Positions 2,548 through 33,979 of a DNA stretch of 34,795 nucleotides are shown piece after piece (positions within the stretch are counted from its first letter, which is position 1; each line of letters begins with the position of its first letter). Origin of the DNA: Phenylobacterium zucineum (GTDB lineage: Bacteria; Pseudomonadota; Alphaproteobacteria; Caulobacterales; Caulobacteraceae); assembly GCA_002221445.1 (NCBI GenBank), contig NMUI01000069.1, positions 1 to 34,795 on the forward strand, given 5' to 3'. The notes under the pieces are model-generated. The model had not been told where the DNA came from and made no database searches. It saw nothing but the letters and a program-made list of their open reading frames with translations. A program made the position numbers and the translations under genes.

Positions 2548-4202
2548 ATTTTGTTTTCCGTTGCAACGATGTAGGACAAGAGCGACACGGACGCCCCCGC
2601 ACCGAAAGCGATTGAGGTTCCGTTGACGTCCACGGGGAAAATGTTTCCGTACACAGTAAAGGTCCGTGCCCCCGCCGCGGGTGTGTACCTATACACGGGC
2701 GTAATATTTGCCTGTGCAGAACCCCCCGGCCCTGAGATACGTTGCGAAACAACACCTAGCGAAGTACCTGTTTCATCTTTAACACCACCGTTAAATATGA
2801 AATACGCCGCCCCAAGAGCGTTCAAACTTCCGGTCAGAGTTATCGAGGCCCATATCGTTATCGGGCTTCCCGTGCTGGTGAATGATGCCGATGTCGATGC
2901 AGTTATCGCGTAACTTGTGGTGACCGAGTTCGGGACGGCCGAAACAAAATTACTTGCCCCGCCCGCCGCTACCGTAGCCAAGTTGCCTTTCAGCGTTAGC
3001 GCAGACCCATCCCATGCCATGCTGTTTGTCGAGTTGCCAATCGAGAACTGCGGCGTGCCACTTACGTTCCCAAGAAAGAACCCGGAAGTGGCATCCCCAA
3101 AGCTGCCTTTGCCGCTATTGAAGTAACCACCGGGGTTTACCATCACCGCGCTCGCCAGCGTGGAGCCAAGCAGACCCTGTGCGCCCTGCGCTCCGGTTGG
3201 CCCCGTGGAGCCTTGCGCACCGGGGGAGCCTTGCGCACCTGTGCCCCCGGTGGGGCCGGTCGCACCTTGCGAACCTGTCGGGCCTTGGCTACCTTGTGCG
3301 CCGGTAGCACCTTGGGCACCCGCAGCACCTTGCGCACCCTGCGCACCCGCAGAGCCTTGCGCACCAGTTGTGCCGGTAGCGCCCTGCGAACCCTGTGCGC
3401 CGGTTGCGCCCGTGCTACCCGTAGCGCCCGTGGCACCTTGTGCGCCCGTGACGCCTTGCGCCCCTGTCAGACCGACAGAACCTTGCGGGCCTTGCGCACC
3501 GGCAGCACCTTGCGCACCTGTCGGCCCCGCAGTTCCGGTGGCACCCTGCGAACCCTGTGTGCCTTGCAGCGACAGGATGTTCCAGTAGGTAGCATTCGGT
3601 GGGGCTTGGTTGGTATTGGCAAGCACGCAGATGTACGTTGTGCCGCCAGAAGCTACCGCATCGGTTGCGACATACGCGGTGGCCGCAGACCAGCTTCCGC
3701 GATAAGTTAGACCCGATGCTCCTACTGCGCCAGTTGCGCCCTGCGCCCCCGTGGAGCCGGTGATGCCCTGAACACCTTGCGGGCCTTGAACACCCTGCGG
3801 GCCTTGGTAGATGTTGCCGATGGCCGTGTTGGTGTCTAGCCACAGAACGGTGGTGTCAGCGGGTGCGCTTGCACCAACCACAATGCCCTGCGCCCCCGCG
3901 CTGCCGGTTGCGCCCTGTGCGCCGGTTGGCCCAGCCGAGCCAGCGCCACCCTGCGCTCCTTGCGGGCCGGTAGCACCAGCGGTGCCTTGGAAGCCTTGCG
4001 CCCCGGGCGAACCCTGCGGGCCGGTGCCGCCAGTGGAACCAGCAACGCCCTGCGCACCCTGTGCGCCGGTAGAGCCTCCCGGCCCCTGTGCGCCGACTGA
4101 ACCCTGCACACCCTGTACGCCCTGCGTACCTTGCGGGCCTTGGGCGCCACCGAAGTCGTACCAGCCGGTGTTTGTCTCGTTTCGGATGCGCAGCGTAGCC
4201 AT
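2544..4202 (-). CDS. Long collagen-like tail fibre protein
   Basis: 552-aa ORF with three blocks of G-X-Y repeats ([28 protein letters not shown]...) and a C-terminal beta-rich domain. Confidence 0.8.
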
Positions 4203-5470
4203 TTAGATTTGAACCTCTCCAACGGGCCGCAGTGCGTAGTCCCCTTTGAGTGCGATGAGGTCGGACTGCACCACGGGGATGTTGTGCGTGCGCTCAAACT
4301 CAGAAGGGAAATAGGTGACCGTGCGGCTATTTTGAAAACGCCCCTTGAAGTCGGGGATGAATCGTGCGAACTGTTGCTTGGTGTAGTACCAGATGCTGTT
4401 CTCGTTCCAGAAGGAAACATGGGTCGGGTCTTGGAACGCTCCGCGCCCATCGGTGCTGGGAACCTCCAACAGCAACCAGCCACCGGGGGCCAGCACGCGG
4501 AAAGCCTCGTTCATCGAGTGGATCGGGTCTTTCAGATGTTCGAAGATGTGGCTGGCGCGAATCACGCCAACGCTGTTGTCTTCAAACGGCCAGGGCTGGT
4601 TCAGGTCGGCCACGACATCCGCGTCAAACAGGTCGACCGTTTTATAGCCCGTCCAGGCGTTTAAACGCCCACCGAGGTCCAACCTATCCAGCCCTTCGTC
4701 TGCGGCCCAGCGGGAGGCCAAATCGCGGGAATAGCGCAGGTAATTGCGCAGCGTCTGGTCCTGCACCTCCTGGTTGGCAGTTACGCAGGAGTTTTCACCA
4801 TGCAGCCGGTACAAGTAGAGGCACTTGTCGATGTGCCGAATGTTCTTGTGGCCGAAGTTGATCAGCATGCGGCAGCACAGGTCGTGATCGTCGCCGGTCT
4901 TGATCGACTGGTCATGCCCGCCAATCGCTTGGTACGCAGTGGTGCGCCATGCGCGAATGTGGTCCGGTGCCCAAAAGATGAAGCGCATCATCTGTGCGCT
5001 GCAAGGCCACGCAATCGCCTCGTTCAGTTCGTGGCCCCTCCACGGGAAAGAGCGATAGCGCCATCCAAAGGCCGCGTCGAACTTTGGGCTTTCCCATGTG
5101 TCTGTCTGGAAGCTGGCCGAGTTGGAATACACCATGACGGTGTCGGGATCGGCAAAGCCAGAGCCACCTCGTCGAGGGCAGTCGGGACCAGGATGTCATC
5201 GGCATCAAGCTCAACCAGGATTTCGCCGGTAGCCACAGAGCAAGCGGTGCCCTTCAATCGGCCAATCTTGTTGTGCGTTTCATCATCGTCATCGATGTTG
5301 AACACCTTCACGCGGGAGTCGGCACTGATGTGGCCGGGGACTGTGCCGCCGCCATTGAGCATGATGACCCACTCCCAATCGCCAAATGTCTGGGACACCA
5401 GCGATGCGTAGGTTTCCTGGATATACGGTGCAGCTTTCGCATGCACAGGGGTGATTACCGAGATAGTCAT
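4203..5470 (-). pseudogene. GT2 glycosyltransferase-SAM methyltransferase fusion, split by an apparent -1 frameshift near 5154-5156
   Basis: ORF 5024-5470 starts MTISVITPVHAKAAPYIQETYASLVSQTFGDWEWVIMLNGG with DADD (GT2). ORF 4203-5135 continues the GT2 C-terminus, then LDLGGRLNAWTGYKTVDL...IRASHIFEHLKDPIHSMNEAFRVLAPGGWLLLEVP (class I methyltransferase). Adding one T at TTT (minus) restores LDEVALAFADPDTVMVYSNSASF. Confidence 0.8.
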
Positions 5471-23887: not shown

Positions 23888-24086
23888 AGGACTTAATCCT
23901 TTCGGACCTGGATGTGGCCTGTCGCACCTCCCCCGATCCCGGTGATGCATTCGGTAGAAATTCCACGCATTTACCCGTGCGTGGCCGATTCGGGTTATCG
24001 GAAATGTCGGGGGCGGGGATTTTGCAGGCGGCGAAGCCTGCGCATGCGGGTGTGGCTATTTGCGTATTCGCGGACCAAGTGCGCCG

Positions 24087-24114
24087 ATTATCACGGACCT
24101 AAATAGGCAGTCAA
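24087..24114 (-). promoter_or_regulatory. Sigma70-like leftward promoter upstream of HNH-terminase
   Basis: Minus strand TTGACT (24114-24109), 16-nt spacer, GATAAT (24092-24087). Confidence 0.65.
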
Positions 24115-24502
24115 TATCTCAATAATATTGTATTTAAGTATTACATAACCCTCACGCGCACACGAATTGACCCAAATCAGGGGTCGGATAGCGGACTAGT
24201 AATAAATCCATTGGATCAGGCGGGTTAATAGGCCAGAAGGCCAGAGTTTTGAAGGCCCCCTAGGCCCGGCAGAATGGCTCAGGCTGCGCCGCTTGATGCA
24301 TTCCAATGGGCAAGCATGCATCGAATAATAAATGCCTTAAATCTAATGCCTTGCACGTGCGTTATTTGGCCTACTGTATGGGGCATCGCATGCATGGGGC
24401 ATTCGGGGCATCCTATGAAAATATATTCGCGTGCACCTAGGGGGTTCTAACGCGGTATATGCACCTTATACGCGGTATCGTTTTCTGCATCCCATTTGCA
24501 GA

Positions 24503-24530
24503 TTGAAATATATTTTGTTTTTCCTATAAT
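24503..24530 (+). promoter_or_regulatory. Sigma70-like rightward promoter of the island
   Basis: TTGAAA (24503-24508), 16-nt spacer, TATAAT (24525-24530). Confidence 0.7.
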
Positions 24531-24536
24531 TGCGGC

Positions 24537-24698
24537 ATGGATTATTTAATTCATACGCGAAATCCGGCGAATCAGGATTTATGGAAATTCAAAATGTATA
24601 ACTCTTATTTCATGCACTGCGCACGCTGCGCAACCCTAGGCGTAAAGCCTGTTCCCTATATCGCGTTTATTCGCGCACTTGACGCAATGGGGGTTTAA
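24537..24698 (+). CDS. Small phage protein, 53 aa
   Basis: Manual translation: MDYLIHTRNPANQDLWKFKMYNSYFMHCARCATLGVKPVPYIAFIRALDAMGV*; abuts the next ORF (TAATATG). Confidence 0.6.
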   Translation: MDYLIHTRNPANQDLWKFKMYNSYFMHCARCATLGVKPVPYIAFIRALDAMGV

Positions 24699-24699
24699 T

Positions 24700-25529
24700 A
24701 TGCGCAACGTTCTTAAATCTGGTGAAGTGTTTCACTATTTCGCAAATAAGGTGCAACCATCTGGCCGCTGTGGCAATATCTCATTCGCTTTGCCGCGTGC
24801 ATATAGCTATGCGGCAGTAATTGGCAAGCATTTTGATAATGGCGTTGCCTTGGCTAGTGGCACTTGGAGTATGACCACAACGCGCCATCAATCCGAATTG
24901 CGGCAAGCATGCAGACATAAAAACTGCATTTATGTGCCTGACCCTGATTCCGTACATGAAAGCCACCGAATAGTTAACCATAACGTGGCGCAGCTATTGC
25001 GCAAAGCAAGCACAGCGAAGGCACGCCGTGGTTTTTACTTAGGCGATGCACTGCGCCAAATCGAACAATTTAACACATTTGCCGAATGGAATGATTCAGC
25101 GCTGCGCATAGCTGCGCCAATGACCGACCCCGAAGCATTGAAAGAGATTGCGGCCAGTGTTAAGGCTGAAACAGCAAAACGCAACGCGGCCATCAAAGAA
25201 CGTGCACGCATTGACGCATTGAAAGATGCCGAAAAACTAGCCGAATGGCGCAAAGGTGTTTCAGTCTATCTGCCATATAACTTACCCGTTGCGCTGCGCG
25301 TTAATGGCGAAGTAATAGAGACATCAAAAGGCGCACGCATACCTGTTAGCGAATGCCCCTTATTTGGGCAATGGTGCAACGTAAAAAGGAATGGAAACCC
25401 GGCGCACCTATTGGCGTATACCAACTAACAAAAATTCGTGCGGATGGTTCTATTGTTGTGGGTTGCCACGATATAGCGTTTTCTGAATTGGAATACATCG
25501 CCAAAGAATTGGAGTATTCCAATGCGTGA
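24700..25529 (+). pseudogene. Uncharacterised phage protein, split by an apparent 1-nt loss near 25356-25359
   Basis: Frame 1 ORF 24700-25428 (MRNVLKSGEVFHYFANKVQPSGRCGNISFALPRAYSYAAVIGKHF...GARIPVSEC) and frame 0 continuation LIWAMVQRKKEWKPGAPIGVYQLTKIRADGSIVVGCHDIAFSELEYIAKELEYSNA*; one extra C in CCCC joins them. Confidence 0.65.
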
Positions 25530-25605
25530 TTTTCTTGAATCTTTGGCCGTTGGGTTGATTCTCGCAACGCCATTCATTGTTGAAATAATCAAGGGGATTT
25601 TGTAA
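25522..25605 (+). CDS. 27-aa predicted membrane microprotein
   Basis: Manual translation: MRDFLESLAVGLILATPFIVEIIKGIL*; start overlaps the end of the previous frame and its stop overlaps the next ATG (TAATG). Confidence 0.5.
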   Translation: MRDFLESLAVGLILATPFIVEIIKGIL

Positions 25606-25835
25606 TGACCAAAGAAGTAGAATATTTTGAAATTGAGATTTCAACTTATCACGGAGAACCCGTTGGGCGAATTCAATTTCACAACAATGGCGAGCTAGAA
25701 CAATCCTCACTCTATTCCATGAATGAGATAAACAACATTATTCAACTATGGCGAATGGATGAACTAATGGGCGGTTTTGCTATCGGCACAAAATTAGCCG
25801 ATAAGTATCATTTTCAGATTTTTACTAGGGGCTAA
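25605..25835 (+). CDS. Small phage protein of unknown function
   Basis: 76-aa ORF MTKEVEYFEIEISTYHGEPVGRIQFHNNGELEQSSLYSMNEINNIIQLWRMDEL...; tight coupling with neighbours. Confidence 0.65.
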   Translation: MTKEVEYFEIEISTYHGEPVGRIQFHNNGELEQSSLYSMNEINNIIQLWRMDELMGGFAIGTKLADKYHFQIFTRG

Positions 25836-25837
25836 AA

Positions 25838-26298
25838 ATGGAAAATAAATTCACCTTTGCCGGTTTCACTTGGCCGCGCAACGTTGCCACACTTACCCCA
25901 TTATCGCAATTGCGTAAAAACGCGAAACCCGCAAAGTATGCGGGCCTTATTACCATGCTCCAAAGCCAAACAGCGAGGGAATGGGTTTTTATACTGACGA
26001 TATGGGGCAACCATTCACCCGCTGGAAATGGTGCGATGAGGTAATGCCCCATATTCGGCATGAGGGATGGTTTACTGATTTGCATGGCGACGGAGAAAAA
26101 ATACGCGGCATTGTCGTATTTTTACCGCATGGCCGGTTTATGGCCGGATGGTCTATGGGTGAAGGGATGTGCGCAACGGTTGACGGTAAGTTATACGATG
26201 GCGAAGTATGCGCAGCATATGCCGCCGATTCTATGGCCGAAAATGCCGCACAGCGAGAAATTGAATATCAGGAACAATGGGAGTTAGAAAATGCGTAA
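25838..26298 (+). pseudogene. Small phage protein, split by an apparent 1-nt loss near 25977-25979
   Basis: ORFs 25838-26044 and 25981-26298; one extra G in GGG gives ...LITMLQSQTARGMGFYTDDMGQPFTRWKWCDEV.... Two overlapping genes remain possible. Confidence 0.55.
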
Positions 26299-26503
26299 AG
26301 CAGACTATGCGCATTTGGCGAATGTAATAAACGCAAAAATACATACCGCCAATGCAAATATTAAACACTCGGAAAACACCGCGCAGCGTGAACACTGGCA
26401 GACTACCAAATCTGTTGCGGATGATATTGCGCGAAGGTTTGCACGCGAAGCAAGTGTTAACCATGATTCATTTTTAAGGGCATGCGGTATAGAAAACCCA
26501 TAA
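26291..26503 (+). CDS. Small phage protein of unknown function
   Basis: 70-aa ORF MRKADYAHLANVINAKIHTANANIKHSENTAQREHWQTTKSVADDIARRF...; overlaps the upstream ORF and is followed by a terminator. Confidence 0.65.
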   Translation: MRKADYAHLANVINAKIHTANANIKHSENTAQREHWQTTKSVADDIARRFAREASVNHDSFLRACGIENP

Positions 26504-26550
26504 CTAACAATCTAACCGTGTACCCGGCACGCTAAACCGGAAAACCCTAG

Positions 26551-26581
26551 GGGGCTACATCGTAAGGTGTAGCCCCTTTTT
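26551..26581 (+). terminator. Rho-independent terminator ending the rightward island transcript
   Basis: GGGGCTACA-TCGTAAGG-TGTAGCCCC followed by TTTTT; 9-bp perfect stem. Confidence 0.9.
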
Positions 26582-26591
26582 CGTTGTCTGC

Positions 26592-26624
26592 TTTCCAATG
26601 CGTCAGAATTCGGCGCATTGGAAA
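26592..26624. repeat. 11-bp perfect inverted repeat, possible operator
   Basis: TTTCCAATGCG (26592-26602) and CGCATTGGAAA (26614-26624), 11-nt spacer, just before ATG 26635. Confidence 0.75.
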
Positions 26625-26634
26625 ACGTACACCT

Positions 26635-26904
26635 ATGCAAAAACTGAACAATCTAAACCGGGCACGCCTATCTGTTTCGCTGGGCGACGGATGGCGCAAC
26701 CATGCTCGAATGGTGCCAGTAGGCATTACGCCTATTGGCCTAGTCACTCGAAAAGGGCTAACTCAATCCTTGGGGGTTGACGCATCCGGCGATTATTGGG
26801 CATTCGGTACAGGTAGGCCCGAACTGTTGCCACGTCAAAAGGTGCAGGGGGCTTTGGCCTTACTTGCCACGGGTATGAACCCTAAAAATAATGAGAAACC
26901 GTAA
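26635..26904 (+). CDS. Small phage protein of unknown function
   Basis: MQKLNNLNRARLSVSLGDGWRNHARMVPVGITPIGLVTRKGLTQSLGVDASGDYWAFGTG...; separate from the upstream unit by a terminator. Confidence 0.6.
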   Translation: MQKLNNLNRARLSVSLGDGWRNHARMVPVGITPIGLVTRKGLTQSLGVDASGDYWAFGTGRPELLPRQKVQGALALLATGMNPKNNEKP

Positions 26905-27069
26905 TATTCACGCAAGAATCGCCTAAATTATTGGCATTTTGCTTACTTTTTAGGCATTTTGGTGTACTTTTGTAAGTTTCGCGTCAGAAATGCCAGTTCG
27001 CGTGCTTTCGGCCAAACACCCCCGTGGGAATTTTGGGATAAAAATTGGCAAATATCCTGGGAATTTTGC

Positions 27070-33244: not shown

Positions 33245-33979
33245 ATGACCGAACAGACTTTCGCTGAACGGCTACTACAGCACAGGAGCAATCTCGGAAT
33301 CTCCCAAGAAGCGGTAGGCAGCATCCTGGGCGTGTCGTCACAAACCATATCAAACTGGGAAGCGGGCACGGCTCCGCGAAAATCCAGACTCGCCCAGGCA
33401 CTGACCTGGATGGCGTCAGGCTTGGTCCCGCCTGTAGAGCCTGCCAAGCTCCGTTCTGAAATCCTCAGTGCCGAAGAAATAAAAGAGGGGGAGGCTACAG
33501 AGCTAGGAAGGGAGCCTATCGTTATTGAGAAAGCTCGGCGTTTGGCTTCGTGGCAGAAGCGTCAAGACGAGGAAAAGCAGTTTGCCGAGGACGAACGGTC
33601 AGTCTTTAAACAAGCGATTCCAGACGCCCTAAAGCAGTACGTAGACCCGCCAGTCGTCACCTATCAAAACCTACGGCTACCCAGAGTGTATTTAAGCCCG
33701 AAGGTAAGCGTAACTATGGTGTTTCCACAAGTGCATCGGGGGCTTTTAAAGCATGCCGCCCTAGTGGTAGCCGCCCTGAAAACCTTAGACACCGAAGCCG
33801 GGCATCCTTGCAAATACTACGCCTTAATAATAGCTGGGGCTGACTCGGGAGAACAAGTCAGAGAGGCGTCTTTGACTACCGTTGCTGGCATTCTGGGGAT
33901 AGACATGTACTTTGTTCCCGACCCGTTAGGCGCGGCTGCGGTAGTTGCCGAGCTAGAAAACGCCGACCCCACGCTATAA
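33245..33979 (+). CDS. XRE-family repressor (cI position) with atypical C-terminal domain
   Basis: TFAERLLQHRSNLGISQEAVGSILGVSSQTISNWEAGTAPRKSRLAQAL HTH; divergent from the cro-like gene; no evident S24 Ser/Lys peptidase motifs. Confidence 0.8.
   Translation: MTEQTFAERLLQHRSNLGISQEAVGSILGVSSQTISNWEAGTAPRKSRLAQALTWMASGLVPPVEPAKLRSEILSAEEIKEGEATELGREPIVIEKARRLASWQKRQDEEKQFAEDERSVFKQAIPDALKQYVDPPVVTYQNLRLPRVYLSPKVSVTMVFPQVHRGLLKHAALVVAALKTLDTEAGHPCKYYALIIAGADSGEQVREASLTTVAGILGIDMYFVPDPLGAAAVVAELENADPTL

Follow-up and report, generated by a model that had tools for sequence, protein, structure and literature searches.

Does the rightward operon of this tailed-phage contig begin with a leaderless mRNA, and is the AUG at the 5′ end of that mRNA used by the ribosome? 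In the window, that is, the whole contig of 34,795 bases, the terminase, portal and HK97-type capsid genes are oriented leftward, helicase and primase are encoded in the right part, and an XRE regulator (33245-33979) and a KilA-N protein are found at the far right. The contig matches IMGVR_UViG_3300020811_000114, a record of equal length, identically across the matched regions, and was binned with a 3.3-Mb genome of 452 contigs, in which a search for 16S found none. A rightward island of lower GC content (44-47%) separates the leftward HNH/terminase operon from the leftward genes that come next. It forms an operon of five cistrons (24537-26503), headed by a 53-codon ORF and closed by an intrinsic terminator (Table 1). 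An Rfam search of positions 24000-27000 gave zero matches.

Table 1. Features of the rightward island and of its surroundings (positions in the window).
Feature	Position	Strand	Basis
Divergent leftward promoter-like TTGACT-N16-GATAAT, 10/12	24087-24114	-	sequence match
Direct repeats ACGCGGTAT, two exact copies	24450-24458 and 24470-24478	+	sequence
Sigma-70-type promoter TTGAAA-N16-TATAAT	24503-24530	+	11/12 consensus match
Predicted transcription start at the A of the ATG, after a C	24537	+	7 nt after the -10 box; peak position in the viral scan
53-codon ORF, candidate leaderless first cistron	24537-24698	+	translation as quoted in the sequence-only reading; TAA stop 1 nt before next ATG
Near-palindrome ATGGATTATTTAATTCAT, 7-bp hairpin over the 5′ AUG in RNA, or DNA operator	24537-24554	+	folding prediction
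Alternative start Met20, 34-aa product, 57-nt leader	24594-24698	+	coding signal and analogy with PCA1 (start at 3175)
Second cistron, phrog_7247 relative	24700-25529	+	profile match; SD GGGGG, -9.1 kcal/mol
Third cistron, 76 aa, SD-led	25605-25835	+	ORF
Fourth cistron, phrog_33651 relative	25838-26298	+	profile match; split by apparent one-base omission near 25981
Fifth cistron, 70 aa, SD-led	26291-26503	+	ORF
Intrinsic terminator of the island	26549-26578	+	13-bp stem, then T-rich tail

The sequence-only reading had placed a promoter ending at 24530 ahead of an ATG at 24537, and these coordinates are confirmed. The -35 box TTGAAA spans 24503-24508, the -10 box TATAAT spans 24525-24530, and the 16-nt spacer is inside the 16-18 range. 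If the split genes described below are due to homopolymer sequencing errors, the T4 and T5 runs of the spacer could likewise be short by a base; the spacer would then be 17 nt, and the promoter would not be weakened. The site is the sole match of at least 11/12 to the sigma-70 consensus on both strands of the whole window; it may also be imagined that the match is due to chance, transcription of the island depending on a promoter elsewhere or on a different polymerase. However, this best match of the window stands in the right place and orientation, and chance equivalents are few. In Markov-1 random sequences, 0.15 sites of at least 11/12 are expected per window and 0.028 in the 586-nt intergenic region, and the expectation falls to 0.0015 for an 11/12 site in that region with an ATG at leaderless distance (+6 to +8). 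A chance promoter is, in our view, very unlikely. Sites of 9/12 occur in the region at chance level (5 found, 5.5 expected).

Upstream of the -35 box, and ending 24 nt from it, are the only two exact copies of ACGCGGTAT in the window. They are 20 nt apart from start to start, about two helical turns, and faintly hint at a possible regulator site. The leftward promoter-like site probably serves the HNH/terminase operon; it and the island promoter point away from each other as a divergent pair.

The six bases TGCGGC form the discriminator between the -10 box and the ATG (24537-24539). Spacings of this kind were examined by scanning IMG/VR for TTGACA-N16-18-TATAAT-N0-20-ATG, the gap length serving as internal control; each scan comprised at least 120 stretches, and a second scan used the TTGAAA box of the window. 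Among the matches listed, ATGs following 178 TTGACA/TATAAT promoters number 23 at gap 6 and 25 at gap 7, against 3-13 at the other gaps. Of the 61 ATGs at gaps 0-20 whose ORF has 50 aa or more, 31 lie at 6-7 among the matches listed, where about 6 are expected (P about 3e-16), and the hexamers of the window give a weaker peak (10 of 40 among the matches listed, P 0.004); both P values are optimistic because related contigs were removed just as identical 60-mers. The control triplets AGT, GAT and GTA, of the same composition, show no 6-7 peak among the matches listed. Seven of the ten ORFs tested at leaderless spacing match Pfam families (DNA polymerase B, clamp loader, helicase, 5′-3′ exonuclease, RecA, D12-class methylase). 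A pyrimidine precedes the ATG, as in the window, in 34 of 41 cases at the peak gaps versus 78 of 133 where the ATG is more distant, among the matches listed.

Since viral ATGs pile up at gaps 6-7, with which the 6-nt gap of the window coincides, the mRNA probably starts at or next to the AUG. Promoter quality, gap, C-A (pyrimidine-purine) step and positional enrichment together lend good support to this prediction, and transcription likely begins at A24537 or within one base. For the part of the leaderless claim that concerns the transcript start, the viral gap enrichment is the strongest support. The enrichment would also imply that leaderless mRNAs are widespread among phages, as far as uncultivated viral contigs can indicate.

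Two observations may be added on these viral contigs. In loci L019-L138 and L139-L258, a distance of 6-7 nt between consensus sigma-70 promoters and the ATGs of real genes, many of them replication genes, is strongly over-represented. In L102, L132 and L058, ORFs of 31-40 aa at leaderless spacing lie directly ahead of a longer gene, as in the window.

The transcript of lambda cI made from PRM begins with the start codon and has no SD, a precedent, already invoked in the sequence-only reading, that is fair for the mechanism, even though the gene of the window is not a repressor gene. In phage PY54, leaderless mRNAs of cI and cro were mapped by RACE (PMC4488713). In these phages, as would be the case here, a phage promoter puts the transcript start on the start codon without an SD; however, the genes there are repressor genes in a switch, whereas here a small ORF heads an operon and the start is predicted from the sequence. 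E. coli mRNAs with an AUG at the 5′ end bind 70S ribosomes there, also where the next gene is SD-led, and the expression of this next gene may be raised or lowered (PMC4965119). The window would resemble them in that a short ORF, opened by a 5′ AUG, lies ahead of an SD-led gene on which it may have an effect; it differs in that its ORF stops 1 nt short of the following gene, and the short protein and its start are putative. Leaderless genes of Deinococcus-Thermus have their -10 motif 6-7 bp ahead of the ORF (PMC12340547), as here, but the window has a -35 box as well, and belongs to a phage genome with many other genes carrying SDs. Leaderless mRNAs have been predicted in cluster O mycobacteriophages (PMC4351075), and phage transcripts have been described as often leaderless (PMC5312081). 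Leaderless phage mRNAs being already known, though the 5′-AUG arrangement is uncommon, the window plausibly provides a new example of a known arrangement. If true, it would be a non-repressor case of leaderless expression heading a phage operon, and its product a small protein of a kind that gene finders relying on SDs may overlook. With promoters preferring a 6-7 nt distance, one could directly count how common leaderless phage mRNAs are; this preference also matters for the annotation of start sites.

Whether the 53-codon ORF encodes a protein is a distinct matter. The product was said to look unannotated, in agreement with our searches, which found no match in Pfam and PHROG and no relative by tblastn across 50,697 phage records. 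The sole match in IMG/VR is the identical record. In further searches, GTDB contigs yielded no relatives with the A2 patterns, and 398 genomes of the order a single weak partial match. Codon usage was trained on 740 codons of the island and of the gene of L003 (IMGVR_UViG_3300045995_000088), the nearest relative. Codons 20-53 are coding-like, with z 3.9 in frame and lower values in the other frames; over codons 2-19 no frame stands out as coding (z 1.45 in frame versus 1.9 in another frame), 18 codons being a weak test. Because of the codon signal and of a stop placed 1 nt before the second cistron (TAA-T-ATG, 24696-24702; 3 nt in L003), the short ORF would be real, and the data support its existence in a 53- or a 34-aa form.

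As had been claimed, ATG 24537 lacks a Shine-Dalgarno sequence, its best pairing reaching only -1.7 kcal/mol and overlapping the promoter. At the four downstream island starts tested, SD energies run from -5.6 to -9.1 kcal/mol, and Met20 is preceded by a weak GGA at 8 nt or by AGGAT at 15 nt. Since these four starts are SD-led while ATG 24537 has no SD and Met20 pairs weakly, a leaderless use of the first AUG would be favoured. The sequence shows the promoter motif and its rarity, the spacing, the coding signal of codons 20-53 and the layout of the operon; that the promoter is active, where precisely transcription starts, and whether the 5′ AUG is used and coupling occurs are inferred from these. 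The following mechanism may be envisaged. Host RNA polymerase would use the sigma-70-type promoter for an early-type operon of five cistrons, up to the terminator, and transcription would begin at A24537 or within one base, leaving the AUG at or next to the mRNA 5′ end. 70S ribosomes would bind this AUG and translate the short first cistron without an SD, and the tight TAA-T-ATG junction may pass them on to the second cistron, which is SD-led. In our estimation, it is as likely as not that the 53-aa ORF is translated in leaderless fashion from an mRNA starting at A24537.

The main rival keeps the same promoter and start site, and leaves the 57 nt of 24537-24593 untranslated, as a leader that carries a hairpin at its 5′ end, ahead of a 34-aa protein starting at Met20; the 5′ AUG would be incidental, or would only bind ribosomes in the manner of a 5′-uAUG. 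Besides the coding signal of codons 20-53, Met20 is favoured by the pairing of the 5′ AUG and by the comparison with two relatives. In RNA starting at A24537, the AUG is predicted to pair within AUGGAUU/AAUUCAU. The hairpin alone is weak (-2.2 kcal/mol); the predicted mean unpaired probability of the AUG, 0.08, is nevertheless below that of all 41 viral ORFs that share this geometry (lowest 0.18), and 10 of 1000 codon-order shuffles reach a value that low. Folded as a whole, the leader RNA does no better than shuffled sequences. Structure around the start is known to inhibit leaderless initiation (PMC9031893). As for the relatives, Curvibacter phage PCA1 (L011) has a small-gene island in the same position, between terminase and primase, with a TTGCAA-N16-TATAAT promoter, a leader of about 53 nt and a 29-aa first protein from 3175 with the SD AAAGGGG. 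The distance from the -10 box to the first-gene start is 60 nt there and 64 nt to Met20 in the window. In L003, a 43-aa head gene with the SD AAAGGA lies just before a 67%-identical phrog_7247 gene, its stop 3 nt ahead of that start. In both phages a small ORF heads the island, as in the window, but a leader and an SD precede it. Against the 34-aa product stand the poor pairing upstream of Met20, the statistical weakness of a test over 18 codons and the lack of support for homology of the small proteins. A pattern Y..H...G..P...F.R can be followed by eye in those of the window, L003 and PCA1, yet shuffle P values range from 0.06 to 0.75 (window ORF versus L003, 0.2-0.3; versus PCA1, 0.06-0.12). 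Homology is not claimed because these values are too high; the proteins are alike in size and position, and not provably homologous. We give the 57-nt leader a substantial probability, short of an even one. Translation of a 53-aa protein from AUG 24537 is the less certain part of the leaderless claim.

The near-palindrome itself may be considered at the DNA level. ATGGATT-N4-AATTCAT, with 7 bp and one mismatch from perfect, lies exactly over the start site, from +1 to +18, and could be an operator for a phage repressor shutting off the island, the ATG within it being coincidental; an XRE-type regulator is encoded in the window. However, one other site occurs in the window, with 2 mismatches, the total of matches is within chance and no second copy is convincing; an operator would, moreover, be compatible with leaderless translation. 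This possibility appears very unlikely. Also very unlikely is a dual-start control combining 5′ AUG, hairpin and in-frame Met20: 70S ribosomes would initiate at the AUG and 30S subunits at Met20, the proportions of the 53- and 34-aa forms would vary in the course of infection, and the next gene would be gated through coupling to the translated short ORF.

The head ORFs of phiAxp-2, AXY1, PMBT3 and YIMV22061 were also considered; they look unrelated and do not have leaderless spacing from a consensus promoter. In PCA1, the annotated start of UZZ64578.1 (L011 3139-3264) is probably 36 nt too far upstream, the ATG at 3175 having the strong SD AAAGGGG.

Downstream of the leaderless candidate, the second cistron matches phrog_7247 in two frames (8e-12 and 7.7e-11). 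It is read as 24700-25428 plus 25353-25529, a split caused by its having one base fewer than L003 around CCCC 25356-25359. Relatives of the fourth cistron in phrog_33651 belong to Casjensviridae phages of Aeromonas, Burkholderia and Achromobacter, and the families of the island products are common to Casjensviridae and Limnohabitans phages. Since these products are encoded in small-gene islands that lie opposite the structural operon, they may have early roles directed at the host. The splits of the second and fourth cistrons resemble sequencing errors at homopolymers rather than programmed frameshifts. On the reverse strand, family 2 glycosyltransferase and methyltransferase ORFs overlap in two frames (4203-5470) and look like one gene, with an apparent one-base omission near 5130-5160; in this glycosyltransferase as in the second and fourth cistrons, each apparent missing base adjoins a short homopolymer run.
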